A stretch of DNA of 32,752 nt from a virus. The stretch lies in IMG/VR virus record IMGVR_UViG_3300046171_000061, positions 1-32,752 of that record. One strand, 5' to 3'. The notes beneath the pieces were generated by a model, which worked only from the letters and a program-made list of their open reading frames with translations, did no database searches and had not been told where the DNA came from. The translations under genes were made by a program, and so were the position numbers. Positions 184 to 32,752 of this stretch are shown here, piece by piece; the stretch's first letter is position 1; each line of letters opens with the position of its first letter.

Positions 184-197
184 CCTAAACAATTAGT

Positions 198-229: not shown

Positions 230-233
230 AAGG

Positions 234-281: not shown

Positions 282-332
282 AGAAAACCTCTTAATCATT
301 GTTATCAACTTTGACAACGAGGAGACTGAACC

Positions 333-1166: not shown

Positions 1167-1180
1167 GGAGAAGCTAAGTC

Positions 1181-1438: not shown

Positions 1439-1445
1439 GTTCCAC

Positions 1446-1471
1446 GGCCCCTTCGGGGGCCATTCTATTTC
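1446..1471 (+). terminator. GC-rich hairpin with UUCG loop after the capsid operon
   Basis: GGCCCC (1446-1451), loop TTCG (1452-1455), GGGGCC (1456-1461), then ATTCTATTTC. The perfect stem with a UUCG tetraloop is very stable. The following T-rich stretch is imperfect, so it may terminate partially or protect the 3' end of capsid mRNA. T7 also has a terminator just after its capsid gene. Confidence 0.7.
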
Positions 1472-1481
1472 TAGGTGAGTT

Positions 1482-7746: not shown

Positions 7747-10700
7747 ACCAGGCACAGAGCTAATCGAAGCCATTGTAAAGCGTGTTTCGGAAACGCCTGA
7801 AGGTCTAAGAGAGGCTGGCTATCTAGGGCAAAACACTGAGGCTAACCCGCGAAACATTAAGTCTGCGACTACTCGTTATCGTAAAGCACTGGAGAAAGAC
7901 GAAGCGTTTGCTGAAAGTGAGCGTATGCGCACAGAAGGTCAGCTCAAAGTTAAAGACGCTGATGTTTCTGATAGACCCATAGTTAGACCAGAAGACTTGG
8001 AAGACTCGGTCATCATGGCTCATAAAGGCGACACAACCAAAACGCGATCAACACTAGAAGAGTTTGAAGGCGTCAAACTTGATGAGCCCGTAACAACTTT
8101 TGGCGGGCCCAAGTTTGGTGCGCAAGCTGACAACCTTGCAAACCGTATGTATTGGGCATCAATGCAAGATGCTGCGACACCTTTCCAAAACAAAGCGGAG
8201 GCACTGCAAGCGGCAAAGGATATGCCGGTCAATGCTGTATATGTAGCGATGGGGAAGGAAGGCAACTACTTCAACCAGGCGTTTGCTGATGCATTGTTGC
8301 AACGCACAATGGCTAACAAAAAGATATCGCAAAAAGCCTTAGACAAATTTGACGCAGATATGCGCGCGTCACGCGAAGATTGGGTAGGCATTCGTAGTCC
8401 AGACGCTAGAGCGCAACTCTTAGGTGTTGGCAAGTATCCAATGAAAGGCGCTGGTAAACTGCGATCTTCATTTGTTAAAAAGATTAACAAAGCGGAATAT
8501 AGAGAAGCAGGATTTGCATCGAATGATCGATTGCTGCGCGCATTTACGGAGCCTGATTTATTGGGCGCTCAACTTGGCGATGCAGGTTACTCTATCGGCG
8601 AGGTTGGTTACGACTACGGGCTGACTCGCATTGACTCGCATCCATCCTATAACACCGGAATCGGTGGCACTTACAAAGGTGGCTTCGAGCGCTCAATACC
8701 GGCAGAAATATTATTCCCTGAAGCGTGGCGAAAGCTTGGCACTGAATTAACAAAGCCAAGTAAGAAAGCACTTGCGAAAGGAGCAAAGCCTCGCCCCTTA
8801 AACAATGCAGAAAAAGTAGACGCCATCTCCAAGCGTAAAGACTTATTCCAGATTGCCGACGCGCAATGGGTAGACCGCGTATCGACTTGGCTGCGAAACA
8901 ATCCTGGCATGGATAATAGCGATGCAATCAAGGCGATTGGTTTGCCAACGGCTGCACTTTTCTTGCTTGATCCAGGTGAAGCACAGGCTGCCGCTGTAGA
9001 TGCCGTCTACGCGGGCACAGAACGCGATCTAACGGATGAAGAGGCTCAGGCCATAACTACCTACGTCCGCTTGCAACAAGCCGTACAGGCCACTGGAGGC
9101 ATGCCTACAGGCATGGTAATGGATGCGCAAAACATTCAGCTTGATTTGCAAGATATCGATCCAACGCCCGTGTTTTATGATGACGATGTTGATGGCAAGT
9201 ATTTAGAAGAACGCGATCGCGCTGAAGCTGAAAGCATTGACTTTTACACGCAGGGAATGGCCTTTAAAACAGAGACTCCCGACACTGCGGCAAGGATTTC
9301 TCAGGAGGGTGACCGCCCTCAATTTAGTCCTTACTACGATATTCCACAGGCATTTCAAGATATAGCGGTTCCAGCAGTAAGTGCTGCCGGTGCTGCAGCC
9401 GGTGATTTTTTGCGAGGCACTGTTATAGAAGGCCCGCGCGCAGTTGCTGGCGGATTTCTAGACGCTACGGCAGAAGCAGCCAAGGCAATGGAATCTGTTA
9501 TACCGCTGGGAACTATTAGCGGCCAAGACCCTGAATATTTACAGCTTGAGACGCGCCCAGAAACTGTAACCGGTGAGTTTGTGCGCAACATGTCGCAGTT
9601 TCTAACTGGGTTTTTGCCAGCTACTCGCGCATTTAAAGCCGCTGGAATGGGCAATATTAGCGCTGGCATGGCTGGCGGTGCAGCTGCTGACTTCTTTGTG
9701 TTTGATCCGCAAGAAGATCGCTTCTCAAACATTATACAAGGGACGCCATTGGCGACTCCCTTTACTGAATATCTAGCTGCGGGGGAAGATGACAGCGCTC
9801 TTGAGGGACGATTTAAAAATGCCGTAGAAGGTTTGTTTCTTGGGGGTGCTGTTGAGCTAATCATGGGCTTTGCTCGTGGCATGAAGAAAGCAAAACAAGT
9901 TCGCGAAGTTGCACAAGCAGAAGGCAAAACCCCTGAAGAGTTTATCGATGACGCCATGAAAAATCTCAAGGCCGGTCCTGATGCACCTCGGGTAGTAGAG
10001 CCAGCAGAGATGGCTGAAGGTCAGGAGTTCCTGCCATTTAGTGAAGCGTTAGATGCGGCTCAAGCTGAGATCGTAGTGCCCGATGCAAAGCCAGGGGCAA
10101 CAAAAGCGGAACCTGGCGCAGCGCGTAACATAAATCTAGGCAACTTAAGTACAACTGAAGATGTCAAAACGTTAATTGATGAGGTTGCTATTGCAGATGC
10201 AACGCCGATTAACGAGGCACGTCGGCAACAGATTTCTAACGAAGAGCTTGAAGCACTTGCCGGTGACGTTGGCATGACTGTTGAAAAGTTGTTGGCGCGT
10301 CGTGCAGGAGATTTACCAAGGGCAGAAGAGATACTAGCGTCTCGTAAGATCCTAACCGCATCTGGCGAAAACCTTATTAACATGGCGCAAGCTGCAAAAA
10401 ATGGTAGCGAGATGGATCTCATACTATTTAGACGAGCCATGACTCAACACCGAGCAATACAGGCCCAAGTCTCGGGAATGGCTGCGGAAGCTGGCCGTGC
10501 ATTGCAGCAGTTCAACATTGCAGCCAAGTCTGCCAAGGAACAAGAGCGACTGATTAAAGAGGCGCTTGAAACTACGGGTGGTGAAGGCCTGTCTCGCAAC
10601 ATGGCGGCAATGATTTCAGAGCTGAAGGATGTGAACCAGGTTGGCAAAGTTGTTAAAGAGGCAAACAAAGCTACGACCTTTGATAAATTGTATGAGGTGT

Positions 10701-12445: not shown

Positions 12446-15400
12446 TGACAGTAGCAGACAACACAAGCCGTAACCAATACACAGCGACATCTGGTCAGAC
12501 GGTCTTTGCTTATACATTTGAGATCGTAGACAAGGACGATATTGTCGTACTAAAGAACGGCACTACCCTCTCAGAGGGCACTAATTACACTGTGTCGAAC
12601 GTAGGCAATGATAGCGGGGGCAACGTAACCCTTGCCGTCGGCGCGACTGCTGGAGACATTCTGACCCTTTACCGGGATATGCCCTACGCTCGCACCCAGA
12701 ACTATACAAACTCTGGTGACTTCCTAGCCTCTGAGGTAAACAGCGACTTCGATAATCTATGGCTGGCAGGCGAGCAGACCAACCGATCATTCTCTCAGTC
12801 TATTCGCAAGCCTATTACTGACTCAGACTCTATCTCGATGGAGCTGCCAGACGCGGCGACTCGTGCAAGTAAGTATCTTCGCTTCACTGATACTGGTGCG
12901 GTAACTGTTGCTACTGCCACAACAACGGTGGCGGCTGATTCGGTACTGATTGATGATGCTGGTAATTACTACGATTCAGATAATGTTGAGGGTGCGCTGC
13001 AAGAGATTGGCGCTGATCTAGTTTCGATTGATGCAGAGCTAGATACAAAAGCACCGATCAATAACCCTACATTCACTGGCACAGTCACGATTCCATCGCC
13101 GTTTACTCTTGACTCAACATCGGTAACTGTCTCAGGCACAGAGCTTAATTATCTCGATGGCGCAACCGGAAACATCCAAGAGCAGATTGACGCGGTTGAT
13201 GTAGAAAGCATTGCTCACATTAACGAGTACATTAATCCGCCAGATGGCAGTGGTCCGTTCTCTGATTCTGTTGCCCTTACAAACGCTTGTAACGCTGCTG
13301 AGGTCATTTTGTTTGGCGGCACGACTATGGACATTGATGCAGACTGGACGTTCCCAGTCGGCGGTATAGCGCGTCGATGGATGTTCCAAGGCAACACATG
13401 GAACCTAACTAATAACGCACAGATTGTTTTAGACAATGTTACTGACTTTGCGATCGTTGGTGACGGTGCAACTGTTAACGGTAACTGGAAAGTTGCGCGT
13501 GTAAATGGCGCTACCGCTTCACAGCCAACAACTATCACTGTTGACTCAGGCCACAACTTCGCTGTTGATGACATCGTTTCATCTAGCTGGTCGCTGGATT
13601 ATCTGCCTAACTCAGTATCTCGTGCGGCTGCGCCTCTTGGCGGCGACTTCAACCGTGTAGCGTCAACCACAGCAACAACAATCACGCTTGACCATCAGGT
13701 TGTCTTAACAGATACCATACCGGATGCTGACAACAAACTGGCAGGTGGCACATACCTAATCAACGCTGTATTCAGCAAGTCTGGTATTGAGTTTGAAGGG
13801 ACTGGTCACTTCCATGTGGAAGGCGTCACGTTCCAGAATATGCCAAACGCCTATGCGATTAACGTTAATGACTCTACGGAAACAGCAAAGGCAAGCATCG
13901 TAAACTGTGAGATCAACGGTATTGCCCTGGATGCGATCAACTTCCGGGGTGACACGCTCTATATGCGCGACTTTAAGGTACGCGATGTCCGAGATATTTC
14001 TAAGCAGGTACTTGTCTGGAGCAACCAGACGAAGAAAGGCAGACTCTACGGCGAAAACTGTGACTGGGCGCACAACAACCAAGACGCATTCTTCTACACA
14101 AACGTGTCAGAAACCGATGCACTGGCCTATGCGCCCGACATGGTATGGATCAACTGTGTCTTTGATGGCTTCAACAATGACGACTTTACTCCACGACAAG
14201 CCAAGCAAGGCAACTGTCTAAATTGGCAGTCTCGTGGCGGCGCGTCACACATCATCGCGGGCAAGGTTGAGTTCATCAACTGTAACTTCTTTAATGTTAA
14301 GCGTCACATTTTAGGTACAACGATACACCGGATTGAGGTTTACACGCAAGACAAGATTACATTCCAAAACTGTAATATGGATGCGGAAGGTGTGTACGTC
14401 GAAGGCGCTGGTATCAGCCGCTTAACTGTCGCTCCGATCATTTACGATAACTGTAATATGCGGGCGTCGAACTACCGACTACACATCGGCGTAGGCGAGG
14501 TTCACTATCGTAACTCTGTCATCCAAGAAAAGGGCGCAACCAACATTGCGTACTTCGTGCGTGGCGATGAGCAGGAAGAGACGTCGGCAACAACGACTCG
14601 CGTATACCACCAAGGCGAGTACATCATCAACACTGGCTCAGGCTTGGTATACGAGGCCACACCCGGCTCAAGCAATAGCTTTGTAACAACCAGCGGTGAC
14701 GCGCTTACTGGCTCTAAGTTTACCCAGGTCGCTCGTATTTACTATGTAGAGGCTGGCAGCACTACGACATCGGCATACGTGCGCGGTGACTTTGTTAAGA
14801 ACGCAGCAACCAACAAGATTTACGAGTGTGTTACGGGCGGCGCAGATCAGTACGAAGCCCCATCCGGCACGTCACTAGGTAACACAACACACTTCGAGAT
14901 CAACGAAGTAGATGTCCCTAATGGCCACTTCGAGAACACTCGCATCATCGGTAACTTCGACTTTGTTAGTAGCTCTGACACTGTATTCGACAACTTGTTA
15001 CTGCCTTATCGTAGCGGCTTGGTTGTTCCTCACTTCGAGCGTATCTATCAAGAGAACCTTGATAACAAAATCGTGCTTGAGGGTGCGACACCAACTGACG
15101 CAACTGCGATCAACACAGAGGATTGGTTCACTAACGGCACCAGCATTACTGACGTGCCAAGCCTGTCAATTAAGATTGCAGGAACCGACGCGATTGCTGA
15201 GTTTGGCGCGGATGAATCTTCACTGCGAGAGCTACACTTCAAGCTAAAGGCTAGGCGCTTTGACTCAACCGTAGGCGCAACGTCTCCGCTTCCAATGAAG
15301 GGTGCATTTCTCGTTGATCCACTAGAGAACAGCTTGGTCTTTGCTACCCGTCGTCCGGGTGATGTGAAGCGCATTACAGAAACGCATTCGGCAGATGTAA

Positions 15401-15549
15401 ATGCAAGTGCCTCAGCAGGTGCAAGCAGCGTTGTGATCACTAACGTCGCAAGTTCAGCGGTTCCTGTTGTTGGCGATTGGGTGTCGCTAAACAATAACGG
15501 CGACTCAGATGTGTACTTCCATGAGATTACAGCGGTAAGTGGCAGCTAG
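12445..15549 (+). CDS. Tail fibre / tailspike, N-terminal segment (gp17-type anchor, beta-helix, binding repeats)
   Basis: 1034 residues. Residues 1 to about 150 are the gp17-type tail anchor: 'SRNQYTATSGQTVFAYTFEI', 'VLKNGTTLSEGTNYTVSNVG', 'YRDMPYARTQNYTNSGDF', 'DFDNLWLAGEQ'. The middle (about 280-700) alternates short polar strands, as in right-handed beta-helix spikes. Two tandem repeats follow near residues 720-820 ('YHQGEYIIN...GLVYEATPG' and 'YVRGDFVKN...NKIYECVTG'), resembling small carbohydrate-binding modules. The frame ends at TAG (15,547-15,549) right after EITAVSGS, but the next frame continues the same sentence (SPYTLTITPTLTEAI) if one base is skipped. I therefore regard this as the first part of a longer fibre. 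Confidence 0.8.
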   Translation: MTVADNTSRNQYTATSGQTVFAYTFEIVDKDDIVVLKNGTTLSEGTNYTVSNVGNDSGGNVTLAVGATAGDILTLYRDMPYARTQNYTNSGDFLASEVNSDFDNLWLAGEQTNRSFSQSIRKPITDSDSISMELPDAATRASKYLRFTDTGAVTVATATTTVAADSVLIDDAGNYYDSDNVEGALQEIGADLVSIDAELDTKAPINNPTFTGTVTIPSPFTLDSTSVTVSGTELNYLDGATGNIQEQIDAVDVESIAHINEYINPPDGSGPFSDSVALTNACNAAEVILFGGTTMDIDADWTFPVGGIARRWMFQGNTWNLTNNAQIVLDNVTDFAIVGDGATVNGNWKVARVNGATASQPTTITVDSGHNFAVDDIVSSSWSLDYLPNSVSRAAAPLGGDFNRVASTTATTITLDHQVVLTDTIPDADNKLAGGTYLINAVFSKSGIEFEGTGHFHVEGVTFQNMPNAYAINVNDSTETAKASIVNCEINGIALDAINFRGDTLYMRDFKVRDVRDISKQVLVWSNQTKKGRLYGENCDWAHNNQDAFFYTNVSETDALAYAPDMVWINCVFDGFNNDDFTPRQAKQGNCLNWQSRGGASHIIAGKVEFINCNFFNVKRHILGTTIHRIEVYTQDKITFQNCNMDAEGVYVEGAGISRLTVAPIIYDNCNMRASNYRLHIGVGEVHYRNSVIQEKGATNIAYFVRGDEQEETSATTTRVYHQGEYIINTGSGLVYEATPGSSNSFVTTSGDALTGSKFTQVARIYYVEAGSTTTSAYVRGDFVKNAATNKIYECVTGGADQYEAPSGTSLGNTTHFEINEVDVPNGHFENTRIIGNFDFVSSSDTVFDNLLLPYRSGLVVPHFERIYQENLDNKIVLEGATPTDATAINTEDWFTNGTSITDVPSLSIKIAGTDAIAEFGADESSLRELHFKLKARRFDSTVGATSPLPMKGAFLVDPLENSLVFATRRPGDVKRITETHSADVNASASAGASSVVITNVASSAVPVVGDWVSLNNNGDSDVYFHEITAVSGS

Positions 15550-16120
15550 CCCCTACACGCTGACAATTACGCCAACACTGACAGAGGCTATCACTACCAG
15601 CACAAACTCCTACCTGATCAAGCACGAATACATTTATGTGCACGTTGATGACAATGGCGATATTGATGTTACGGGCGATGTCTTATTTGGCGACAACGAC
15701 AAGGCTATTTTCGGTGCTGGCTCTGACCTACAGATTTATCATGATATAAATGATAGCTATATCAGCGATCAAGGCTCAGGCAACCTAAAGTTACTAACTG
15801 ATGAGTTTAGGCTCAGAAATGCCGCTGATAGCGCCCATATGATTACAGGCAGTCAAGGCGGTGCAATTACTGCGTACCACAACGGAAGCGCCAAACTAGC
15901 CACAACCTCCACAGGCATCGACGTAACAGGAAAGCTAGAAACATCTGGCAACAACAACGGCGGCGCAAAAGCTAACTACATCCGAATCACTGACACTGAT
16001 ACAAGTGCAACCCTGAACAACCAGCAGGGCGGTATCGAGTTTTACACCAGCGATTCTGGCAACGAAGGCGTAACCGCTAGTATCGAAAACCTTTATGCGG
16101 GATCTGGTGCAGGGCAGTAA
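15539..16120 (+). CDS. Tail fibre, middle segment (+1 frame relative to preceding part)
   Basis: Open frame of 193 codons if the GTG at 15,539 is used. I doubt this is an independent gene: there is no Shine-Dalgarno, it overlaps the previous frame, and its sequence from SPYTLTITPTLTEAI continues the domain cut by the TAG at 15,547. Content is fibre-like: 'DVTGDVLFGDNDKAIFGAGS', 'LQIYHDINDSYISDQGSGNL', 'LATTSTGIDVTGKLETSG', the strand-turn repeats of marine phage fibres. It ends at TAA 16,118-16,120 just after GSGAG. Removing one G of GGG (16,112-16,114) carries the reading into the next segment as GSNLTVKTAASGG. The whole fibre would then be about 2,080 residues. Confidence 0.6.
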   Translation: MAASPYTLTITPTLTEAITTSTNSYLIKHEYIYVHVDDNGDIDVTGDVLFGDNDKAIFGAGSDLQIYHDINDSYISDQGSGNLKLLTDEFRLRNAADSAHMITGSQGGAITAYHNGSAKLATTSTGIDVTGKLETSGNNNGGAKANYIRITDTDTSATLNNQQGGIEFYTSDSGNEGVTASIENLYAGSGAGQ

Positions 16121-18677
16121 CTTAACTGTTAAGACTGCGGCTAGTGGTGGCGCTGGCGCAACGGAGAAGTTCAGGGTAGATGCAAATGGCGCGGTTGGCG
16201 TCGGCACATCCTCACCCGGCACTTATGGCGGCTTTACTGTTCAACAGGCATCTAACTCTAGCTCTAAGGGTATTGCCATTGTTGACTCTACAGCAGCGCA
16301 GTCAATCAAGCTGTGGGCAAACGCTACCTATGCGTACATATCATCCGGTAACACGGGCGCAGATCCTCTGATCTTAAACACTGGTGGCGGCTCAGTTCGA
16401 GTGGGTGATGTTCCTGCAACAGTCGATGGCAATTTTGCTGTACGGTCTAATTCCGATTCTCATGCAATAACTATGTATGAACCAACGGGCGGCAATGAAA
16501 GCTGGTCGTTAGGTATTAATGGCGCTGGTGATTTAGGTTTCTATAACTCTGGCTCTACTACCGCATCGGTTGTGTTTAATGATGCTGGAGGCATCGACGT
16601 TACGGGGAGTGTTACTGCTGATGGCGGTACTTTCGACGGCGCTGTTTTGATGAATTCCTCTAATGAGTTGCAGTTTTTCAATACAAACTACGGCATCAGA
16701 GCAAGCACTGGTTTAGAGATAAAAACAGGCGACTTTACAAGGTTTTTAGAAGGCTCTACAGAGCATATGAGAATTGCCAGTGGTGGCAATGTCGGTATAG
16801 GGACTTCGTCGCCCTCTAACCCCCTTTCGGTACTAGGCTCTGCTGGAACTATTGCATCATTTACCAACGGCGCTGATGCTGACCTTCTTATTAAAGCGCA
16901 ATCTGCCGTTACAACACTGACTCCATCAACAGGTACGTTGGCGTTTGGTACTAGCGACACAGAGCGTATGCGTATCAACAGCTCTGGCAATGTCGGTATA
17001 GGTGTCGTCCCAGAAACAGATTGGCACAGTAATTATACCGCTCTTCAGGTAAATACTGGCGGCGCATTAGCTTCTTACGCCAGCGGAACGACGTTCGGAA
17101 CTGCTATATCAACGAACCAAAGAACAACTGGCGATACGTTTGTTAATGGTAATAAGTACATAGCAAATGCGGCGGCTCAGTTATACCTACAAGATAACGG
17201 CGGCAACCACATTTGGTATAACGCCGCATCAGGAACAGCAGACGCAACAATAAGCTGGAATGAGCGTATGCGTATCGAGTCAGACGGCAATCTGCGGGTC
17301 TATAATTCAATCGACAACCTTACCGGAACATTAACGCTAAACGGACGCACCACTGGTCAGATTCGTTTTGAATCTGGCGGCAGTTTGAAGATGTTAATGA
17401 ATAGCTCTGGGCATTTAGGTATAGGAGTCTCGTCGGTAGCTGCGCCGCTCCATGTTTCTAAAAGCATAAACAACTATGTTGCTAGGTTTGAAAACTCAGA
17501 TGCATCAAACCCATACACTGTTTGGATACGTGAGCCTTCTTCTGCGTCGGCGGGATATCCTTTATTAAACATTTCAAACAATGCTGGAACTAATACTTAT
17601 CTTAGAGTTGATAGTAGCTCTGGCAACTTGCTGGCTGGTACCACTGATAACGACACGCAAAATAACAATGCAGGTTCTACGGCAGATAACGGTTTTGTTT
17701 ACAACAGAGGCTCAGGCGGTTATTTCAATGTAGCTAGATATAACGGAACAGTTGCTTATTTCAATAGAACAAGCACAGACGGCGCTATTGTAGACTTCCG
17801 CAAAGACGGCACTTCAGTCGGTAGTATCTTCAGTTACAACGGCTTTTTAGGCATTGGAAGTCCGTCTGGTAATGATGCTTATGTGATTATGGGTTCTGAC
17901 TTTATTGCCCCAGCTACAAGCACTGGCACAGCCAGAGATGGCGCAATTGATTTAGGTGCCAGCGGTAGGCGCTTCAAAGACCTTTACCTGTCAGGCGCTA
18001 TTACTTCTGGAAGTATTGATGCGGCAGGAGAGAGCTTCTTTGGTGGCTCTTTAGACATCCGCCTAAACTCTTCATCATCTAACTCCATTTTTGAGGGCAA
18101 CAGCAGCAGCATGGCTGTCCGAAGCAATGGAAGTAACAACATCAACTATGAGCTAGGTGGAGCAAACGTCCGCTACACCATGAACCTGTCGCGGTTCAAT
18201 GCAACAGATGACAATGCGCGAGAGCTTGGATCAAGTTCTACGAGATGGAGTACGGTCTACGCGGCTACTGGCACAATCAATACATCGGATGAGCGGCTTA
18301 AGCAGCAAGTCAGAGATATCAGCGAAGCAGAAGCCCGCGTTGCAGTAGCAGCAAAAGGCTTGCTCAAGGCATACAAGTACAACGATGCAGTTGAAGCCAA
18401 GGGCGATGGCGCTCGATGGCACATCGGTATTATGGCGCAAGAGCTAAAGGCTGCGTTTGAAGCCGAAGGTTTGGACGCGCATGAGTACGGTATGTTCTGC
18501 TGGAATGAGTGGTGGGAAGCCGAAGTTTGGCATGAAGACGAAAGCCTAGAGAATGGCGGTTACTACCAGCGTGAGACTTTTGATTCAGAAGCAGACGCAC
18601 CAGCAGACGCGGTAAGACACGACCGATACTCTATCCGTTATGAAGAACTACTAGCATTTATCATTGCATCTATTTGA
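16095..18677 (+). CDS. Tail fibre, C-terminal segment with S74 intramolecular chaperone
   Basis: 860 codons open; true content starts about codon 7 (GSNLTVKTA). The shaft carries repeats of the form 'ERMRI.SSGNVGIGTSSP' (for example near 16,150-16,215, 16,760-16,830, 16,960-17,000 and 17,400-17,440), typical of trimeric phage fibre shafts. The last 130 or so residues form a Peptidase S74 / endosialidase chaperone domain: NTSDERLKQQVRDI with the Ser (18,285) and Lys (18,300) of the S-D-x-x-x-K dyad, then 'HIGIMAQELKAAFEAEGLD' and 'YSIRYEELLAFIIASI'. In known proteins this domain drives trimer folding and then cuts itself off. A separately translated fibre is possible but no good start site is visible. 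Confidence 0.8.
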   Translation: MRDLVQGSNLTVKTAASGGAGATEKFRVDANGAVGVGTSSPGTYGGFTVQQASNSSSKGIAIVDSTAAQSIKLWANATYAYISSGNTGADPLILNTGGGSVRVGDVPATVDGNFAVRSNSDSHAITMYEPTGGNESWSLGINGAGDLGFYNSGSTTASVVFNDAGGIDVTGSVTADGGTFDGAVLMNSSNELQFFNTNYGIRASTGLEIKTGDFTRFLEGSTEHMRIASGGNVGIGTSSPSNPLSVLGSAGTIASFTNGADADLLIKAQSAVTTLTPSTGTLAFGTSDTERMRINSSGNVGIGVVPETDWHSNYTALQVNTGGALASYASGTTFGTAISTNQRTTGDTFVNGNKYIANAAAQLYLQDNGGNHIWYNAASGTADATISWNERMRIESDGNLRVYNSIDNLTGTLTLNGRTTGQIRFESGGSLKMLMNSSGHLGIGVSSVAAPLHVSKSINNYVARFENSDASNPYTVWIREPSSASAGYPLLNISNNAGTNTYLRVDSSSGNLLAGTTDNDTQNNNAGSTADNGFVYNRGSGGYFNVARYNGTVAYFNRTSTDGAIVDFRKDGTSVGSIFSYNGFLGIGSPSGNDAYVIMGSDFIAPATSTGTARDGAIDLGASGRRFKDLYLSGAITSGSIDAAGESFFGGSLDIRLNSSSSNSIFEGNSSSMAVRSNGSNNINYELGGANVRYTMNLSRFNATDDNARELGSSSTRWSTVYAATGTINTSDERLKQQVRDISEAEARVAVAAKGLLKAYKYNDAVEAKGDGARWHIGIMAQELKAAFEAEGLDAHEYGMFCWNEWWEAEVWHEDESLENGGYYQRETFDSEADAPADAVRHDRYSIRYEELLAFIIASI

Positions 18678-18687
18678 GGAACTACAA

Positions 18688-19845: not shown

Positions 19846-20112
19846 GTGGACGATCGGCGGCTAGACAGGATCGAAGGAAAGCTAGATAAACTTAGTGAAG
19901 TTATTACTGCTATTGCTCGCGTTGAGGAGAAGTTGTTGGCTAGTCATAACCGCATTGATCGCTTAGAAAGTCGCGCCGATAAACACGGCAAAGAGATCGA
20001 TGATCTTAAAAAGATTTCACAGTACAACCACACATACGTGAAGACTATCGAACGTCTAGCGTGGATACTGATTAGCGCAACTGTCGGATTCCTAACCTAC
20101 TACCTACGATGA
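19846..20112 (+). CDS. Coiled-coil protein with C-terminal membrane helix (lysis-associated)
   Basis: 88 residues from a GTG start. Residues 3-60 form a heptad-rich charged coiled coil (RLDRIEGKLDKLSEVITAIA, then RIDRLESRADKHGKEIDDL). The C-terminal 20 residues (LAWILISATVGFLTYYLR) form one membrane-spanning segment. This layout matches small XhlA/haemolysin-type phage lysis accessories. It ends in ATGA overlap with the holin gene, so both membrane proteins are likely made together. It may regulate the holin or anchor the lysis complex. Confidence 0.65.
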   Translation: MDDRRLDRIEGKLDKLSEVITAIARVEEKLLASHNRIDRLESRADKHGKEIDDLKKISQYNHTYVKTIERLAWILISATVGFLTYYLR

Positions 20113-20504
20113 TTGACAAGCTAATAGGTCCGATATCAGCGCTGTTAGATAAGATCATTCCCGACGCGGATGAGCGCAGTCGGTTATCGCATGAGATAGC
20201 CACACTAGCGGAGAGACAGGCCCATGAAATCGCTAAGGCTCAGATCGCTGTTAACAAAGAAGAAGCGGCAAGCCATTCAATGTTTGTTTCGGGATGGCGT
20301 CCGGCTGTTGGTTGGGTGTGCACATTGGGTCTTGCGACCAACTACCTGTTTGTGCCTGTTTGCAATTTTCTACTTACTCTCAATGAATCCCCTATCACCG
20401 TTCCGCCCTTAGACCTGAGCGAGATGATGCCCGTTCTCTTGGGTATGCTAGGACTTGGCGGTCTGCGTACTTACGAGAAGACAAAGGCCGTTGCCCGCAA
20501 ATGA
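20109..20504 (+). CDS. Holin (3TM / GTA-holin type)
   Basis: 131 residues. A charged N-terminal half (DADERSRLSHEIATLAERQA, then AQIAVNKEEAASHSMFVSGWRPAVGW) leads into hydrophobic segments at about 74-98 and 111-121. The 'E...S.F...WRP..GW......Y' pattern is characteristic of the 3TM holin family first noted in gene transfer agents. The endolysin gene follows with a 4-base overlap. The product would permeabilise the inner membrane at the end of infection. Confidence 0.8.
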   Translation: MIDKLIGPISALLDKIIPDADERSRLSHEIATLAERQAHEIAKAQIAVNKEEAASHSMFVSGWRPAVGWVCTLGLATNYLFVPVCNFLLTLNESPITVPPLDLSEMMPVLLGMLGLGGLRTYEKTKAVARK

Positions 20505-20851
20505 GCTTCAAATATTTCAGACTCGAAGAGTTCAACTGTACTCACACTAACCTGAATTCCATGGACCTGGCATTCATCCATCGGCTCGATGAGCTGCGCC
20601 AGCGTGTCGGTTTCCCCATGATTGTGACCAGCGGTTACAGGGATGCAACCCATCCTGCCGAAGCTCGGAAGCAAACGCCAGGCACACACAACCAGGGCAT
20701 TGCTGCAGACATCGCAGTGTCAAATGGGTTCGAGCGTATGAACCTGGTGCATGAAGCACTCAAAATGTCTTTCGGGGGCATCGGTGTTTCCAAGTCATTT
20801 ATCCATATCGATGACCGCAAGACTACTCCGGTCATGTGGACTTACTCTTAA
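20501..20851 (+). CDS. Endolysin, M15-family zinc peptidase
   Basis: 116 residues, about the size of a single M15A/M15_3 domain. Zinc ligands can be read as H63 and D70 in THNQGIAADI and H102 in FIHID, with D104 as a likely catalytic neighbour. 'MIVTSGYRD' is the typical strand before the first metal ligand. These enzymes cut peptide bridges in peptidoglycan (L-Ala-D-Glu or D-Ala-D-Ala type). There is no signal peptide, so release depends on the holin encoded immediately upstream. It is the last gene before the control region at 20.85-20.94 kb. Confidence 0.85.
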   Translation: MSFKYFRLEEFNCTHTNLNSMDLAFIHRLDELRQRVGFPMIVTSGYRDATHPAEARKQTPGTHNQGIAADIAVSNGFERMNLVHEALKMSFGGIGVSKSFIHIDDRKTTPVMWTYS

Positions 20852-20941: not shown

Positions 20942-21088
20942 ATGAGTAAGATCGGATCTTACGTTTTAGATCATCAGATCGCTGAAGACGAAAAGTCTAT
21001 TCCTCAAATCATGCGAGACATGGACGACCAGGTGACTGACCTGTTCGCTGCATGGGAACGATTCTTGGAGGAAGCAGACGATGAGTGA
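20942..21088 (+). CDS. Small acidic protein, first gene of DNA-metabolism operon
   Basis: 48 residues, strongly acidic, with a short N-terminal part and a helical C-terminal half (IPQIMRDMDDQVTDLFAAWE...). The start is supported by AAGGGAGAG 7-15 bases upstream; the stop overlaps the next gene by 8 bases. No family is recognised. Small acidic phage proteins at operon starts often bind a host protein or mimic DNA, but nothing here proves it. Confidence 0.65.
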   Translation: MSKIGSYVLDHQIAEDEKSIPQIMRDMDDQVTDLFAAWERFLEEADDE

Positions 21089-21704
21089 TATTCCACAGCC
21101 GGTCATTGACGTATTGAAAGAGATTGGCGAGACCGCCAAGACATCCACATGGGATTGCCACGGTACTCGCGTGATCCTGCACAAGGCGCTTGAGAAGATT
21201 GCCGCACACAGGGAAATTGAGTTCGAAGAGCCTCGTCACCTGGTTACCGATCCAGCTAATAAGCAGGTAGCTATCCAGGTCATTGGCTCTATGCGAGACG
21301 CGCAAGGTAAGTTTCGAACAGAATGGTCAATCGGTGAGGTGTCACCGGCCAATTGCAAGAACGCTTACCCGTTTGCGATGGCAGAGAAGCGCGCCAAAGA
21401 TCGCGTGATCCTAAAGCTCGCTGGCTTGCATGGTTACGTGTACTCAGAGGATGAGGCTGAAGACTTCAAAGAGTCACCCCATGCCGAGCTGCTGGCGTAT
21501 AACGAAGCAGTGCGCGAGAACATCGACTTTGTATTCCAGGTCAAAGAGGCAGTAGCCAATGAGGAATGGGATATGTTGCGAGCGATCATCGAGGAAACAC
21601 CAAACGATGTGAAGCTTGCGCTCAATCGTGCCCCCAGCAAGGGCGGCATATTTACCACGCACGAAGTTAAGTGCATGAAACAAAACCCAAAGGGAGATAA
21701 GTAA
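21081..21704 (+). CDS. Putative single-strand DNA annealing protein (Rad52/ERF-like)
   Basis: 207 residues. The N-terminal two thirds carry 'STWDCHGTRVILHKALEKIA', a 'QVAIQVIGSMRD' strand, 'EWSIGEVSPANCKNAYPFAM' and AEKRAKDRVILKLAGLHG. The AEKRAKDR helix with preceding conserved Y-P/A pattern is what I associate with ERF/Rad52-type annealing proteins of phages. The C-terminal part is acidic and helical. Such proteins pair complementary single strands in recombination-dependent replication. Its neighbour is an SSB-like protein, a usual partner. A different DNA-binding role is possible, because no catalytic residues exist to test by eye. Confidence 0.6.
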   Translation: MSDIPQPVIDVLKEIGETAKTSTWDCHGTRVILHKALEKIAAHREIEFEEPRHLVTDPANKQVAIQVIGSMRDAQGKFRTEWSIGEVSPANCKNAYPFAMAEKRAKDRVILKLAGLHGYVYSEDEAEDFKESPHAELLAYNEAVRENIDFVFQVKEAVANEEWDMLRAIIEETPNDVKLALNRAPSKGGIFTTHEVKCMKQNPKGDK

Positions 21705-23096: not shown

Positions 23097-23389
23097 CATA
23101 CTTTTATTACGATAGAATCGAGGTGCGTTATAAGTTTGATAAAAACAGTAAGCACAAAGGACGATGGACAATGATTGGTGTTCGTCCTGATCGCGCTCAT
23201 GAAAACTTGACGCCTGCAAGGTCTGAACGCTGGCGCGGTGAATGGATGCGCGATGAAGCCTTTCAATACATTCTTAAGCGATCATATCCCGATGAACGCG
23301 CATACACTAGAAGAGCGCGCATTGTGGTTTGGTTTACTAAAGAAGGAAAATTTTTTGGTGTTCGCGGAAATAAGGTAGATCCAGAATGA
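23093..23389 (+). CDS. Hypothetical basic protein
   Basis: 98 residues, rich in R, K, Y and W (MTYFYYDRIEVRYKFDKN, then 'DERAYTRRARIVVWFTKEGK'). The sequence has no recognised motif. It reads as a beta-rich small domain, and the charge suggests nucleic acid contact. It overlaps both neighbours by four bases (ATGA), so it belongs to the replication/recombination operon. I do not recognise the family. Confidence 0.6.
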   Translation: MTYFYYDRIEVRYKFDKNSKHKGRWTMIGVRPDRAHENLTPARSERWRGEWMRDEAFQYILKRSYPDERAYTRRARIVVWFTKEGKFFGVRGNKVDPE

Positions 23390-23778
23390 GCCATCGATGG
23401 ACAGTCAAAACAAAGTTCCAGGCTGAAGAGCTGTGCAAGTTCATCATGGCGCACTGCGAGGATGGCAAGACCTACGAGATCCACGAGCCTACATTGACCG
23501 GCCAGCAGATCAAAGCGGTGCATGCCTACTGCGATCATGTAGCCAGGGATATGAACGCTGCGGGTATTGACATGCAGCATGTCTTAAGCGGTGCTAAACT
23601 ATCGATACCACCAACAGGTAAGATGCTATATCACATAATGTGGAAGCCAATCCAAACCGCCATGCTACAAAAGGCAGATTTACCTTCAGTCGGTAAGTAT
23701 GAAGTGGATCAAATATATCAGGTCATGGCGCGTCACCTGGTTGAAGCTCACGATGTCGATGTGAGGTTTGGCCGATAG
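23386..23778 (+). CDS. NinB-like recombination-associated protein
   Basis: 130 residues. Key pattern: 'TGQQIKAVHAYCDHVARDMN...GIDMQHVLSG', then 'KMLYHIMWKPIQTAMLQKADLPSV' and a last helix 'YEVDQIYQVMARHLVEAHDV'. This resembles the phage family with 'Q..ALH.Y.......LN..G.DM', 'K..LWRP.Q.A' and 'EV..VY....RHL', which sits in recombination regions and is compared with lambda NinB (a DNA-binding Orf-like protein). Neighbouring annealing, SSB-like and HNH genes support this. NinB itself is more divergent, so the exact role is uncertain. Confidence 0.5.
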   Translation: MSHRWTVKTKFQAEELCKFIMAHCEDGKTYEIHEPTLTGQQIKAVHAYCDHVARDMNAAGIDMQHVLSGAKLSIPPTGKMLYHIMWKPIQTAMLQKADLPSVGKYEVDQIYQVMARHLVEAHDVDVRFGR

Positions 23779-25861: not shown

Positions 25862-26004
25862 TGGCTTCCCTCGTAGGGATCATGAGTGCCAGGATACTTC
25901 AGCAGCCAGCTGCCCTGCAGATTCTCGATGTACTTGGTGCTGACATCATGATTTTTACACCAGCGCAAAGCACTCTCCAAACTATCAAATACGATTGTTG
26001 TCAT
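25858..26004 (-). CDS. Small hypothetical protein of the leftward cluster
   Basis: 48 residues: MTTIVFDSLESALRWCKNHD, then 'STKYIENLQGSWLLKYPGTH'. The upstream AAGGTGG is a good ribosome site, and ATGA overlaps tie it to both neighbours, which is the best evidence that it is real. It looks like a small alpha/beta domain. No family is recognised. Confidence 0.65.
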   Translation of the reverse strand: MTTIVFDSLESALRWCKNHDVSTKYIENLQGSWLLKYPGTHDPYEGSQ

Positions 26005-26216
26005 GCTTTCCACCTTATGCAACTCGCTGTGCTACATGCCCTGGGTTGAATGGTGCTGAATGGAATCCACCAGTTCTGACCTTCTGATTTAACGAGCACT
26101 TCAAGCGACAGCACATTGCTCTCTTGCTCAATGCGGGAACCGAAGACAACGGACTCTTCAGCCACGTCACCTCCGATCATGAATTGAACTACCTTGCCTA
26201 TTGTTTTTGGTCTCAT
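26001..26216 (-). CDS. Small hypothetical protein of the leftward cluster
   Basis: 71 residues: MRPKTIGKVVQFMIGGDVAE and 'ESVVFGSRIEQESNVLSLEV', a beta-rich start with a mixed tail ending 'STASCIRWKA'. No motif is recognised. It is coupled by ATGA overlaps with genes on both sides, in the same leftward transcript as the sigma-like protein. The unusual C-terminal composition could be natural or a frame slip near its end. Confidence 0.55.
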   Translation of the reverse strand: MRPKTIGKVVQFMIGGDVAEESVVFGSRIEQESNVLSLEVLVKSEGQNWWIPFSTIQPRACSTASCIRWKA

Positions 26217-26407
26217 GAGTAGGCTTTCTCTTCTAAATCCATGAGGTCACTTAGCATGGCGTCACGGATTTGGTTTAGCTGGATGACAGATTGACCCTGG
26301 ATATCAGTCAGGGCGCAGTGTAGATCAGCCCGAGTAAGCTCTGCGAGAGTCTCATCAAGTCTGTCGAGGATGGTATTGTACTGCTCGATACGGTCGTCTA
26401 ATCCCAT
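26213..26407 (-). CDS. Small coiled-coil protein of the leftward cluster
   Basis: 64 residues, almost wholly helical with heptad-like spacing (DDRIEQYNTILDRLDETLAE, then 'IQLNQIRDAMLSDLMDLEEK'). It has one cysteine and is acidic. The start is preceded by ACCAAGGGAG (complement of 26,415-26,424), the same ribosome-site module used by other early genes here. Likely a dimer; function unknown. Confidence 0.65.
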   Translation of the reverse strand: MGLDDRIEQYNTILDRLDETLAELTRADLHCALTDIQGQSVIQLNQIRDAMLSDLMDLEEKAYS

Positions 26408-26427
26408 TGTGTTTCTCCCTTGGTAAA

Positions 26428-26443
26428 GGCCGCTTATGCGGCC
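26428..26443 (-). terminator. GC-rich hairpin over the stop codon of the first leftward gene
   Basis: GGCCGC (26,428-26,433) and GCGGCC (26,438-26,443) form a perfect six-base stem with a TTAT loop; the complement of the loop holds part of the stop codon TAA. On the minus strand it is followed only by TTTA, so it is at best a partial terminator. It could lower expression of the downstream leftward genes or stabilise the first message. Confidence 0.45.
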
Positions 26444-26646
26444 CGTTTGATTTGCTTCGCCATGATCTTGCCAAGGTAGTATTCTTGGCGATCAAACAGC
26501 TCGTTGATTTCATCGCTTACTTGGTGAAGCGTTGCGACGTGCTCTGCGTCGTTGAAGTCAGTGCAGTCAGCTAATAGTGCGCGGCGCTCAATAAGTTCAG
26601 CCAGTTGCTTGGCGACGTTGGTTACGATTTCGAGGTCTGTGTACAT
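26434..26646 (-). CDS. Small helical protein, first gene of the leftward cluster
   Basis: 70 residues, helical and acidic with a basic end (MYTDLEIVTNVAKQLAELIE, then 'VSDEINELFDRQEYYLGKIM' and AKQIKRAA). No motif is recognised. The ribosome site AAGGGAA is the ACCAAGGGA module (complement of 26,654-26,663). As the promoter-proximal gene it should be made earliest and most strongly, a usual place for host-interaction proteins; this is inference. Confidence 0.65.
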   Translation of the reverse strand: MYTDLEIVTNVAKQLAELIERRALLADCTDFNDAEHVATLHQVSDEINELFDRQEYYLGKIMAKQIKRAA

Positions 26647-26711
26647 GTCTTTATTCCCTTGGTTAGTGGCTGTGTCCCCAGCCGATGACTAATACTTACA
26701 TACCTAAATCT

Positions 26712-26775
26712 ATAGTTCAACACTTTCCGTGATGTTTATTTAAAATAGTTTATAAATCACTGATCGTGTTATACT
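26712..26775. promoter_or_regulatory. Divergent control region of leftward and rightward early genes
   Basis: Rightward: TGTTATACT (26,767-26,775) is an extended -10 (TG-N-TATACT) with no clear -35, reading toward 26,807. Leftward: the complement contains TTGAAC within AGTGTTGAACTAT (26,712-26,724), usable as a -35 for the cluster starting at 26,646, with only a weak -10. The core TGTTGAAC also occurs at the 20.9 kb control palindrome. The segment 26,731-26,760 is AT-rich. The two promoters are about 50 bases apart. Confidence 0.45.
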
Positions 26776-26806
26776 AGGACACGTCATAGCTACTGGGATT
26801 AACCCA

Positions 26807-27420: not shown

Positions 27421-27685
27421 TCGGGCAGCACGTCAAGCCGAGATGCGCAACAAGATTGAGGCATCAGGGTATGAATCGCATGTTGCTAATGTTGTTAAGA
27501 AATTGCTAGATCCTGAGCAGGAATATGACTCTATCGAGGTGCAGCGCATGAAGTCTGCTGCCGACCTATCGATCAAGATGATGGCTAAGTTCATGCCAGA
27601 CCTTAAATCCACTGAGATTACAGGTGCCGATGGCGGTGACCTGGTGATTGCTGTACAACGTAAGCGCTTCGATGGCGACGATTGA
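27395..27685 (+). CDS. Probable terminase small subunit
   Basis: 96 residues from ATG 27,395. 'KTRAQLNRAARQAEMRNKIE', 'YESHVANVVKKLLDPEQEYD' and 'MKSAADLSIKMMAKFMPDLK' suggest a mostly helical protein ending in a loose acidic/basic tail (TGADGGDLVIAVQRKRFDGDD). Location just before the large terminase, with a 14-base overlap, is the main reason for the call. The small subunit recognises phage DNA for packaging. Sequence similarity in this family is weak, so confidence is moderate. Confidence 0.55.
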   Translation: MAKTRAQLNRAARQAEMRNKIEASGYESHVANVVKKLLDPEQEYDSIEVQRMKSAADLSIKMMAKFMPDLKSTEITGADGGDLVIAVQRKRFDGDD

Positions 27686-28646
27686 ATATGTAATGAAGCC
27701 GCAAGGCAGGGTGCTCGAGGAGTTTGCTGACTGCCGATCACGTAACTCATTCATCATGGGGCCACTAGGCTCCGGCAAGACCGTCCAGGTTATCCTTAAA
27801 TTCCTAGAGTTGATGTGCGAGCAGGCACCAGTCACTCGTGAGACGCATCCAAACTACGGCGTCCGGCTATCACGCATCATCGCAGCCAGGAACACGTACT
27901 CAGAACTATTTTCGACCACCATCAAGGACTGGCTCGAGGTACATGGTGACTTGGGTGAGTTTAAGCAGGGTAACAAAGAGCCTCCTACGCACAAGATTCA
28001 GTTCAAGCTAGGGGATGGTACGACTGTTCGCAGCGAAGTCATCTTCATTGCTTTTGATCGACCTGATCACGTCAAGAAAGCACGAGGTATACAGACGACC
28101 TGGGTGTGGCTGAACGAAGCCAAAGAGCATTCCAAGAGCGTTGTCGATATGCTGGACCTGCGATGCGGTCGGTACCCATCGATGAAGGAAGGCATCAAGC
28201 CTACGCACTACGGAATGATTGGAGATTCCAATGCCCCGGACGAGGATCACTGGTACTACAAGCTGGCTGAAGAGGAACGTCCAGAAGGATGGAAGTTTCA
28301 CCGTCAACCAGGTGGTGTATATCGGGAAGGCGATGGATGGTATCTCAACGAGAAGGCAGAGAACCTGCATAACCTACCCGAGGATTACTATCGGCGCGGA
28401 CTACAGGGGAAAACAGATGATTGGATCAAGGTTAATCTCGCGAATGAGTACGGCTTTGTCTCGAGCGGTAAGCCAGTTCATCCACTTTACACTGATTCTA
28501 TACACTGCCTTGGCGATGATTTCGTTCCTAATTCTGACACCCCTGTTGTTCTTGGTTTCGATTTTGGTCGGACTCCCGCTTGCGCTTTTATACAGCGTGA
28601 TGCACTCGGGTCGATGGGTCTGTTTCGACGAATTCTGCATGACTGA
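27672..28646 (+). CDS. Terminase large subunit, N-terminal segment (frameshifted)
   Basis: Start ATG 27,672 gives MATIEYVMKPQGRVLEEF. The ATPase part is complete: Walker A GPLGSGKT at residues 30-37, Walker B TTWVWLNEAKE with E149 as catalytic glutamate, and a later motif 'GMIGDSNAPDEDHWYYKLAE'. Nuclease residue D297 appears in VVLGFDFGRTPACAF. After QRDALG the frame leaves the family sequence and stops at 28,646; the +1 frame from 28,611 continues correctly as RWVCFDEFC. Deleting one G of GGG (28,608-28,610) restores it. The enzyme packages DNA into the prohead. Confidence 0.85.
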   Translation: MATIEYVMKPQGRVLEEFADCRSRNSFIMGPLGSGKTVQVILKFLELMCEQAPVTRETHPNYGVRLSRIIAARNTYSELFSTTIKDWLEVHGDLGEFKQGNKEPPTHKIQFKLGDGTTVRSEVIFIAFDRPDHVKKARGIQTTWVWLNEAKEHSKSVVDMLDLRCGRYPSMKEGIKPTHYGMIGDSNAPDEDHWYYKLAEEERPEGWKFHRQPGGVYREGDGWYLNEKAENLHNLPEDYYRRGLQGKTDDWIKVNLANEYGFVSSGKPVHPLYTDSIHCLGDDFVPNSDTPVVLGFDFGRTPACAFIQRDALGSMGLFRRILHD

Positions 28647-28977
28647 TTCCGGGGCTGTGGACTTTGCGCCCAGTCTCAAACGCTACATCGAGGCTAACTA
28701 TCCGAAGTTCAAGTTTCGTGGTTGGGGCGATCCCTCGGGCGACAACAAGAACCAGGCTAACGCTGACACTCCATTCAAGATTATGCGCGCTGCTGGCATA
28801 CCTTGTACTCCTACGCTGACTAATGACCCAGCATTACGGAGAGCAGCTCTGGAACTACCCATGAAGGAGCTGTGCATGGATGGCAAACCTCGATTCCTAA
28901 TCAGCCCGAAGGCAAGGATGATCCGCAAAGGGCTTGCAAGGTGGGTTCTGTTACCGGCGCATACAGGTATCGGGTGA
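28600..28977 (+). CDS. Terminase large subunit, middle segment (frame 1, frameshifted)
   Basis: Open frame through the nuclease domain. From RWVCFDEFCMTDSGAVDF the reading continues that of the previous segment. 'FKFRGWGDPSGDNKNQ' holds a conserved nuclease aspartate block (GWGDP), followed by 'NADTPFKIMRAAGIPCTPTL' and 'KPRFLISPKARMIRKGL'. After RKGL it runs out of family sequence and stops at 28,977. Removing one G of GGG at 28,930-28,932 continues as QGGFCYRRIQVSG. There is no independent ribosome site, so this is a fragment of one gene. Confidence 0.8.
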   Translation: MHSGRWVCFDEFCMTDSGAVDFAPSLKRYIEANYPKFKFRGWGDPSGDNKNQANADTPFKIMRAAGIPCTPTLTNDPALRRAALELPMKELCMDGKPRFLISPKARMIRKGLARWVLLPAHTGIG

Positions 28978-29137
28978 CAAGTACACTGATGAACCCGACA
29001 AGAACGAATACTCGCACCCGGTCGAGGCGCTCGAGTACGCGCTGCAGGGCGAAGGTGAGGGACGCCAGGCAGTAAGAACGCAACATGTTCAGCGACAACC
29101 GAGGCGAGCGGAGATGGCATTCGATGTATGGCGATGA
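28934..29137 (+). CDS. Terminase large subunit, C-terminal segment (frame 2)
   Basis: Reads QGGFCYRRIQVSGDKYTDEP and 'NEYSHPVEALEYALQGEGEG', the typical end of podovirus large terminases (the ..SH..EALQYALLG.GE.. pattern). The D/H residues of the last nuclease motif (KNEYSHPVEAL) lie here, so an unrepaired gene would lack the final catalytic residue. The stop TGA is at 29,135-29,137, after the start of the next gene. Confidence 0.8.
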   Translation: MQGGFCYRRIQVSGDKYTDEPDKNEYSHPVEALEYALQGEGEGRQAVRTQHVQRQPRRAEMAFDVWR

Positions 29138-30005: not shown

Positions 30006-30905
30006 ATGGCACTCCCTCCCCAGTTTGGCAACATCAAAGGTCTCAAAGATCGCGAAGCAAAAGCGTTCAAGTACGAGACACAATGGCACGATCAGCTGAC
30101 AGATGCGTATGAGTATTTCTTACCGCAGCGTAACCTGTTCAACACCGAGAACACCGGTCAAAAGAAGATGGATCGTATCTTCGATGCGACTTCATTGATC
30201 GCTATTCAGCAAGGTGCGAGCAAGCTGCAAGAGAACATAGCTCCGATCTGGTCACGCTGGGCTACCTTTCAGCCTACTGATGACATCCTAAAGCTGCTGG
30301 AGACGGGTGAGTTTGGCGTATCTGAAGAGGACGTGCGCGCTAACCTGGACGAGCAGTGCGACTTGGTCTTTGACTACATCAATCGGTCCAACTTCCACAC
30401 GCAGTTCTATGAGTGCGCCCTGGATATCCTGATCGGCACCGGCACGATGAAGATCGAAGAGACCGATGACGACACGAACCCGCTTTGCTTCCGTGCTATT
30501 CCACAGAAAGGCATCGCATTCGAGGAAGGTCCATACGGCACAGTCGAATCACACTGGCGGCGCTTCCAGGTTAAGGCGCGATTGCTCGAGCGCATGTGGC
30601 GAGGCTTCAAAGCATCGGAGAAGATCAAGAACATGATCGAAAACTCTCCCGATACTGAGGTAGGTGTAAGCGAAGGTGTCCTGTTTGACCCAAAGACCAG
30701 GAAGTATTACGGCGTTCTATGGGTGCAAAACGAGAACCGCATCTCGTGGGAAGAGGATTTTGGAGAGACATCTCCCTGGGTGACCGGTCGTTACACGAAA
30801 GTCTCTGGTGAAGTGCGTGGTCGCGGTCCTGCCATGCAATGTCTGCCCGATGTGCGCTCACTGAAACAAAGTCAAAGAATTTGTACTGCAAAAAACAGCG
30901 CTTGA
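30006..30905 (+). CDS. Portal protein (head-tail connector), N-terminal segment
   Basis: About 290 residues of true portal sequence, ending after VRSL. The gp8-like features are 'HDQLTDAYEYFLPQRNLFNT', 'KKMDRIFDATSLIAIQQGAS', 'LQENIAPIWSRWATFQPTDD', 'HTQFYECALDILIGTGTMKI' and 'WVTGRYTKVSGEVRGRGPAM'. The family is the podovirus head-tail connector, which forms the dodecameric portal. After 'DVRSL' the frame leaves the family pattern and stops at 30,905; removing one A of AAA at 30,864-30,866 continues as NKVKEFVLQKTALDVAGMYT. Confidence 0.85.
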   Translation: MALPPQFGNIKGLKDREAKAFKYETQWHDQLTDAYEYFLPQRNLFNTENTGQKKMDRIFDATSLIAIQQGASKLQENIAPIWSRWATFQPTDDILKLLETGEFGVSEEDVRANLDEQCDLVFDYINRSNFHTQFYECALDILIGTGTMKIEETDDDTNPLCFRAIPQKGIAFEEGPYGTVESHWRRFQVKARLLERMWRGFKASEKIKNMIENSPDTEVGVSEGVLFDPKTRKYYGVLWVQNENRISWEEDFGETSPWVTGRYTKVSGEVRGRGPAMQCLPDVRSLKQSQRICTAKNSA

Positions 30906-30915
30906 TGTCGCTGGA

Positions 30916-31596
30916 ATGTATACTGCGACCGACGATGGGGTGACCAATCCCTACAACATGACCATCGCACCAGGCGTTGTCATCCCCGTTGGCTCAAACA
31001 ACACGAACAACCCATCAATCCAGCGCTTAGACACGGGGACTAACCTTGCACTGGCTCAGTTTGAGATCAATGAACTACAGCTCGCTATTAAGTTGGCGCT
31101 GTTTTCTGATCTTCGTGACCCAACTGGTCCTGTGCGCACTGCTACTGAGGTTGCTATCGAGCAGCGAGAGCTTGCCAAACGGATCGGGTCGGCATTTGGT
31201 CGACTCCAGACCGAGGTACTCATACCTGTCTTAAAGCGCGTGGTGGCGATTCTGACGCGACGTGGACTGATTGTACCTATCGAGCTAGAAGGCCGTGACG
31301 TTAAGGTCAAGTTCACCTCTCCATTGGCTCGTGCACAAGACGGTGAAGACCTGTTAGCTGTTCAGCAAGGCCGTACAGTTTGTATTGAACACAGGCTGGT
31401 CCCGAGCAAGTGCAGATGGCGTACAAGACTGAAGACTTCGGAACCTGGGCAGGCTACGAAAACAGGCATGCCAGCAGAGCTAGTACGCTCTGACATGGAG
31501 AAACAGCAAGTAATCATGGCCGGTGCTCAGGCATCAGCCGTAGAAGCTGGGGTTGACCCAGAAACAATGGCCGCTGAGGCCGGAATAACAACGTAA
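30916..31596 (+). CDS. Portal protein, C-terminal segment (with three compensating indels)
   Basis: 226 codons in frame 1. The true portal region runs 'NPYNMTIAPGVVIPVGSNNT', 'IQRLDTGTNLALAQFEINEL', 'DPTGPVRTATEVAIEQRELA' and the wing helices 'RLQTEVLIPVLKRVVAILTR'. Between 31,369 and 31,458 the given frame reads non-family sequence. Removing one G at each of three places (31,369/70, 31,394/95, 31,458) gives QAVQFVLNTAGPEQVQMAYK then TEDFGTWAGYKTGMPAEL, the known portal pattern 'GPE....... AELVRSD'. The net change is zero modulo three, so the frame remains open and ends normally at 31,596. Confidence 0.8.
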   Translation: MYTATDDGVTNPYNMTIAPGVVIPVGSNNTNNPSIQRLDTGTNLALAQFEINELQLAIKLALFSDLRDPTGPVRTATEVAIEQRELAKRIGSAFGRLQTEVLIPVLKRVVAILTRRGLIVPIELEGRDVKVKFTSPLARAQDGEDLLAVQQGRTVCIEHRLVPSKCRWRTRLKTSEPGQATKTGMPAELVRSDMEKQQVIMAGAQASAVEAGVDPETMAAEAGITT

Positions 31597-32206: not shown

Positions 32207-32752
32207 ATGGAAGACCAGGCCGTAGAAACAAACGATACCCTGACATCGCTAGTCGGTGAGGCAGAACCTACATTAGCAGAGGGTGAATACTTCTTATCTG
32301 ACAATATTAAAGGCATTGGCGAGACGCCTGAGTGGTACAAGGCTGATAAATACAAGTCAGTCGCTGAACAGGCGCGCGCATACACTGAGCTAGAGAAAAA
32401 GTTCGGTGGCTTTAACGGCGCACCCAAGGATGGCTACCAGCTATACGACGGTGTCGAGTCTGACGATGCATTATGGGCAGAGCTGGTTGAGTTTGGCACC
32501 GCCAACAACATGAACCAGAACGCTTTGCACCAGGCATGGGAGCTGCTGACCGCACAAGAGGAAGCAATCGAGCAAGTATCGGTTGAAGAAGAGATAGGGA
32601 AGCTGGGACCAAACGCAAATGAGCGTATTACTACTGTCGAGCAGATCATGCGGAACAACTTGGAGCCAGAGCTGTATGAAAAGTACCGAGATGTTGTTAC
32701 TAGCGCGATAATGATTGAGTTTATCGAAGACTTTTCTAAGTCAATGCGCCCT
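32207..32752 (+). CDS. Scaffolding protein, N-terminal part (3'-truncated by window edge)
   Basis: ATG 32,207 with GGAGA 10-14 bases upstream. 182 residues to the window end: an acidic start (MEDQAVETNDTLTSLVGEAE), then 'WYKADKYKSVAEQARAYTEL', 'EKKFGGFNGAPKDGYQLYDG' and helical 'NNMNQNALHQAWELLTAQEE'. This acidic helical character with the 'WYKADKYKSVAEQA' block fits T7-like scaffold/assembly proteins. The last codon ends exactly at 32,752 and the reading continues in frame into base 1 (SMRP then LPIDGYVEPGG), so the complete gene would be about 242 codons. Confidence 0.8.
   Translation, partial: MEDQAVETNDTLTSLVGEAEPTLAEGEYFLSDNIKGIGETPEWYKADKYKSVAEQARAYTELEKKFGGFNGAPKDGYQLYDGVESDDALWAELVEFGTANNMNQNALHQAWELLTAQEEAIEQVSVEEEIGKLGPNANERITTVEQIMRNNLEPELYEKYRDVVTSAIMIEFIEDFSKSMRP

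Follow-up and report, generated by a model that had tools for sequence, protein, structure and literature searches.

The window analysed here, the whole 32,752 bases of the IMG/VR virus record IMGVR_UViG_3300046171_000061, has an open reading frame running off each of its ends. This raises the question of whether the two ends are halves of one gene and, if so, whether the record represents a complete phage genome, as a preliminary description of the sequence had proposed. The features that bear directly on this question are as follows:

32207–32752, + strand: presumed scaffold (capsid assembly) gene, 5' 182 codons, named by position only.
1–183, + strand: presumed scaffold gene, last 60 codons and stop, cut by the left end of the record.
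32752, no strand: end-to-start join, where two codons (six bases; A-Q in the closest relatives) are lacking between the last base of the record and base 1.
333–1166, + strand: major capsid protein (Phage_capsid_2, Pfam, E 2.7e-65; phrog_3437).

The description of both edges was accurate. The right-edge frame stays open for 182 codons and closes on a codon boundary at 32,752, and the frame opening at base 1 comprises 60 codons and a TAA stop, with the capsid gene following from 333. The two frames are in phase, and together they give 242 codons without a stop. When the joined protein was used to scan IMG/VR, 179 matches were confirmed; 76 of the best 80 aligned over residues 1–242, with identities of up to 99% among these 80, indicating that the joined reading frame is not due to chance. 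DNA of two close relatives also crosses the join, from window position 30734 to 7176 in L002 (9.2 kb, 95.7% identity) and from 28897 to 1608 in L003 (5.5 kb, 97.5% identity), which shows that the two ends of the record adjoin in the real genome. The name of the gene is presumed from its place just upstream of the capsid gene, where Methylophilales phage MEP301 has a "capsid assembly protein". No PHROG or Pfam family matched the joined protein, so that it could not be placed in a named podovirus scaffold family, and a tblastn search of GenBank phages (E 1e-5) returned no match.

The join is not exact. Two further residues are found at this point in all 135 distinct contigs that span it, and the record is thus six bases short of closing. 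These contigs come from 139 distinct ones pooled from the scaffold and capsid scans (best 80 matches of each); the remaining four (L087, L106, L119, and L129) start to the right of the join. The spanning loci number 140, five being second copies of the same contig, and many of the 135 contigs are closely similar to one another and hence not independent. The gap falls exactly between codons 182 and 183 in 134 of the 135 alignments, and the extra residue pair is A-K in 109 contigs, Q-K in 13, A-Q in 11, A-P in one, and Q-R in one. At the DNA level, a gap lies no more than 20 columns from the join in all 80 alignments that span it, and the hexamer present there in the nearest relatives (L002, L003, and L004) is GCACAG. 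L002, L003, and L008, whose scaffold proteins are 99, 99, and 95% identical to the joined protein and whose capsids are all 100% identical, likewise have the two codons that the record is without. The proposal of one gene over both ends therefore stands insofar as relatives align to the joined protein, and needs amending by the two residues absent at the join. Residues missing there in comparison with homologous scaffolds had been named beforehand as an outcome against that proposal; what they refute is an exact join only.

Since the missing piece lies exactly at the contig ends, it was presumably lost when the circle was opened. The simplest account is a circular long-read contig that came out six bases too short: a podophage genome would have been assembled as a circle and cut at some arbitrary position within the presumed scaffold gene, and the six bases would have dropped out at the opening, during computational circularisation of the long-read assembly. 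Passages of Wick and Holt (PMC6966772) describe a similar behaviour for Flye, whose circular contigs often lacked tens of bases at their beginning and end. The break point itself is without biological meaning.

A terminal repeat was also sought in the record, and no exact end overlap above 5 bases was found, so that closure is unproven from within the record itself. In 14 of 14 long relatives, the distance between the starts of the matches to the two scaffold-gene halves is 552 to 564 bases, compared with 546 in the record. Three of 16 long relatives, in contrast to the record, have exact end repeats (127 bases in G013, 57 in G012, and 123 in G029) and close into circles of 29,941, 29,729, and 31,051 bases, respectively. 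These circles open at other points, corresponding to window positions near 24.5–24.6 kb (G013), 31.1 kb (G012), and 12.2–12.4 kb (G029). In a gene-by-gene comparison covering 14 long relatives, matching genes keep the circular order of the window in all three. The order is not without exceptions among the long relatives: 5609 and 6016 are swapped in G006 (both weak matches), the early genes are oppositely oriented in G030 and G031, and some matches to gp2042 land on the homologue of gp1181. For many window genes, one or more of the 14 gave no match; the capsid gene is in two frames in G011, and G007 gave no capsid match. A circle of about 32.75 kb fits this phage group.

Taken as signs of a closed genome, the adjacency of the ends in other contigs is present (135 of 135, six bases apart), a join free of lost or duplicated bases is not (six are lost), and neither is a terminal repeat in the record. 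As the ends are adjacent in relatives and the record spans essentially the whole circle, completeness is supported. On these sequence comparisons, the record is very probably an essentially complete genome with a circular map, arbitrarily opened and six bases short. The earlier whole-genome reading thus holds in that the ends adjoin and essentially the whole circle is covered, while its seamless join has to be given up.

The remaining annotated features of the window are these:

1482–2042, + strand: tail protein, tail tubular protein A by gene order (phrog_394; weak match to phrog_9239, tail tubular protein).
2743–5241, + strand: tail protein, tail tubular protein B by gene order (phrog_376).
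7739–12445, + strand: internal virion protein (phrog_6651).
12445–18677, + strand: tail fibre region, three overlapping frames (12445–15549, 15539–16120, and 16095–18677).
20109–20851, + strand: holin (GTA_holin_3TM) and M15 peptidase (endolysin).
27648–29137, + strand: large terminase, with single-base insertions near 28610 and 28932; the end is an estimate based on relatives in which the frame is intact.
30006–31596, + strand: portal (head-tail connector; Pfam Head-tail_con), with insertions near 30864, 31368, 31394, and 31452.

The statement that all expected virion genes are present once is fair as gene content, with the qualification that the portal and large terminase genes are frameshifted. 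We compared the window with relatives for single-base indels, using only alignments of at least 85% identity and counting loci, so that copies of one contig could be counted separately. We retained ten sites at which every covering locus, or every one with a single exception, supported a window-only indel. Eight lie between 28.6 and 31.75 kb, near 28610 (7/7 loci), 28932 (8/8), 29459 (9/10), 30864, 31368, 31394, and 31452 (12/12 each), and 31742 (13/13). Seven of them are insertions and one is a loss; together they disrupt the large terminase, the portal, and small genes nearby. The other two are insertions in the fibre region, at 15545 (2/2 loci) and 16114 (1/1 locus). Mixed or thin signals were left out, namely those at 1173 (6/12), 2053 (23/33), 3438 and 3871/3877 (1/2 each), 6520 (2/3), 12866 (9/17), 14323/14329 (a cancelling pair, 2/2), and 23827/23832 (1/2), as well as single-locus signals at 18684, 18801, and 21017 (1/1 each) and a 21-base difference at 13022 (2/2).

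The portal is a 539-codon open frame in L003, L004, and L009. Its substitutions relative to L003 are distributed 44:2:9 over codon positions 3:2:1 (44 of 55 at the third position), and third positions account for 56 of 68 substitutions relative to L004 and 59 of 68 relative to L009. This mostly third-position divergence suggests a gene under selection rather than in decay, and the ten single-base differences look like residual long-read errors. They are unevenly spread, being dense between 28.6 and 31.7 kb with none found in most of the first 15.5 kb, which counts against a uniformly unpolished long-read contig. The three fibre frames, with a Peptidase_S74 match near the C-terminus of the region, probably belong to one gene in which +1 errors occurred near 15545 and 16114. 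The record needs to be used with care: gene counts or claims of split genes drawn from it would mislead, because single-base errors split the portal, the terminase, and probably the fibre gene, and the join is short.

Other origins of the six-base gap were considered. To judge from its frameshifts, part of the record may have been poorly error-corrected, and the gap might stem from some accident of trimming or of read ends unrelated to circularisation, such as the loss of bases from both ends of one long molecule. The virion DNA of headful and terminal-repeat phages, however, is terminally redundant, whereas the record shows no redundancy, and we regard such an accident as very unlikely. Slightly less probable again is that the join is exact, the phage truly being without the two codons and the circle having been cut precisely at a natural deletion. 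The loss is in frame, so that the joined gene stays open, but the two codons are kept in every spanning contig, including L002 and L003 despite their 99% identical proteins, and a natural deletion falling exactly at an arbitrary cut in 32.7 kb would be a very unlikely coincidence. The same low standing applies to the idea that a longer genome is represented here by a linear fragment, with ends adjacent in appearance only. The record has no end repeat, and IMG/VR virus records without end repeats are often fragments; against this, its ends lie six bases apart in each of the 135 spanning contigs, and the three related circles measure only 29.7 to 31.1 kb. Something could still be missing from the interior of the window, though not from its ends.

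Blunting of a 3' overhang removes the overhang bases and leaves no repeat, and exactly six missing bases without a repeat would match such a loss at physical virion DNA ends. The ends of the record as cohesive ends, with a terminase of the group cutting inside the scaffold gene and six single-stranded bases removed in library preparation before sequencing, are nevertheless the least credible of these alternatives, with hardly any probability left to them, as the site falls within a coding gene, some 3.6 kb beyond where the large terminase gene is estimated to end, the circular relatives open elsewhere, and none of 70 left contig ends lies within 20 bases of the join. The last count is a weak test, since chance alone would place only about half of one end there; the 70 positions were taken from the best 80 capsid-scan matches, the other ten having 10 kb on the left.

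An arbitrarily opened circle that lost six bases thus remains the preferred reading, and it has no bearing on the form of the packaged DNA. A headful (permuted) genome, one with direct terminal repeats, and a circular replicative form would all be equally likely to give an arbitrary opening; being compatible with several genome forms, the opening point says nothing about the virion ends. MEP301 was likewise assembled as a single circular contig, and passages of its report (PMC8024684) take this to suggest either permutation or terminal repeats. Excerpts describing the HTVC010P-like phage skadi (PMC10504331) give nine of ten contigs as circular, four of them with a 125-base direct terminal repeat. 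Skadi belongs to a more distant group, and its terminal repeat does not settle the packaging type of the window phage. We also looked at the large terminase as a guide to packaging type, and found no match to a solved structure. Among GenBank phages, searched with the intact protein of the relative G008 as query, the nearest large terminase was that of Burkholderia phage BcepC6B (NC_005887.1; 42.4 kb), at 51% identity over 99% of the query, and that of Mx8 was more distant, matching over 53%. A literature search for the packaging type of BcepC6B did not find it. The N-terminal part of the window terminase matched five of 16 capsid-scan records and 10 of 14 long relatives, so that this terminase is not common to all relatives with a similar capsid; G029, one of the three closed circles, gave no match. 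Terminase type may vary within the group, some of the misses perhaps being due to fragments.

The virion genes are T7-like, with a Phage_capsid_2 capsid, a head-tail connector portal, tail tubular proteins A and B (names partly taken from gene order), and an internal virion protein. Within the protein encoded at 2743–5241, residues 82–173 gave a weak match, below the Pfam cut-off, to the galactose-binding-domain family F5_F8_type_C_2, and may possibly be an inserted carbohydrate-binding domain. The small protein encoded after the capsid (1181–1438) and the N-terminus of that encoded at 2042–2743 are paralogous (38% identity over 56 residues, E 6e-10); speculatively, the two could have an attachment domain in common, one as a decoration protein and the other as a head fibre. 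The proteins at 21081–21704 and 23386–23778, which we take to resemble a Rad52-like annealing protein and NinB, had no match in PHROGs and none above cut-off in Pfam. Neither a DNA polymerase nor an RNA polymerase turned up among the window proteins searched, a subset of the open reading frames. A stretch of about 0.9 kb (25877–26800) contains only short frames on both strands, and short parts of it are similar in L014.

The phage group is common in IMG/VR, where the capsid scan matched at least 599 stretches, 598 of them confirmed, and the record provides evidence of an essentially complete genome for this uncultivated group. Yet 50,697 GenBank phage records contained no DNA match to positions 1–8000 (blastn) or 6016–18677 (megablast). 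At the protein level, GenBank phage matches were obtained for the capsid and terminase only, all below 60% identity. No relative was found in a host genome (22 pattern matches, none confirmed).

Among known phages, Vibrio podophages of about 32 kb (e.g. 1.138.O, MG592509.1) resemble the window phage in length and in gene order (terminase, portal, capsid, head completion, head closure), with a capsid at 34% identity. The 21 records that the terminase search matched do not include them. Dunaliella viridis virus SI2 (HQ332136.1; 37.3 kb), with an algal host as labelled in its record, has a capsid 41% identical to that of the window (bit score 216, compared with 208 for MEP301) and a large terminase at 32%. 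The capsid of MEP301 (MW452941.1; 34,774 bases) is 44% identical and the closest isolate capsid by search ranking, and its large terminase is at 37% (query from G008). MEP301 differs from the window in several respects: it gave no match to the joined scaffold protein (tblastn, E 1e-5) and no DNA match to positions 1–8000, its GC content is 40.4% compared with about 45–53% along the window, and it is annotated with RusA and ERF, whereas the window has a NinG match. Its gene order is the same as that of the window, running from the head-tail connector through two small genes, the capsid assembly protein, the capsid, a small gene, and tail tubular proteins A and B to the internal virion protein, fibre, holin, and M15 peptidase. 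Judged by these sequence similarities, the window comes from an uncultivated podophage that carries T7-like virion genes, is related to MEP301 and, as its isolate relatives suggest, is probably marine.
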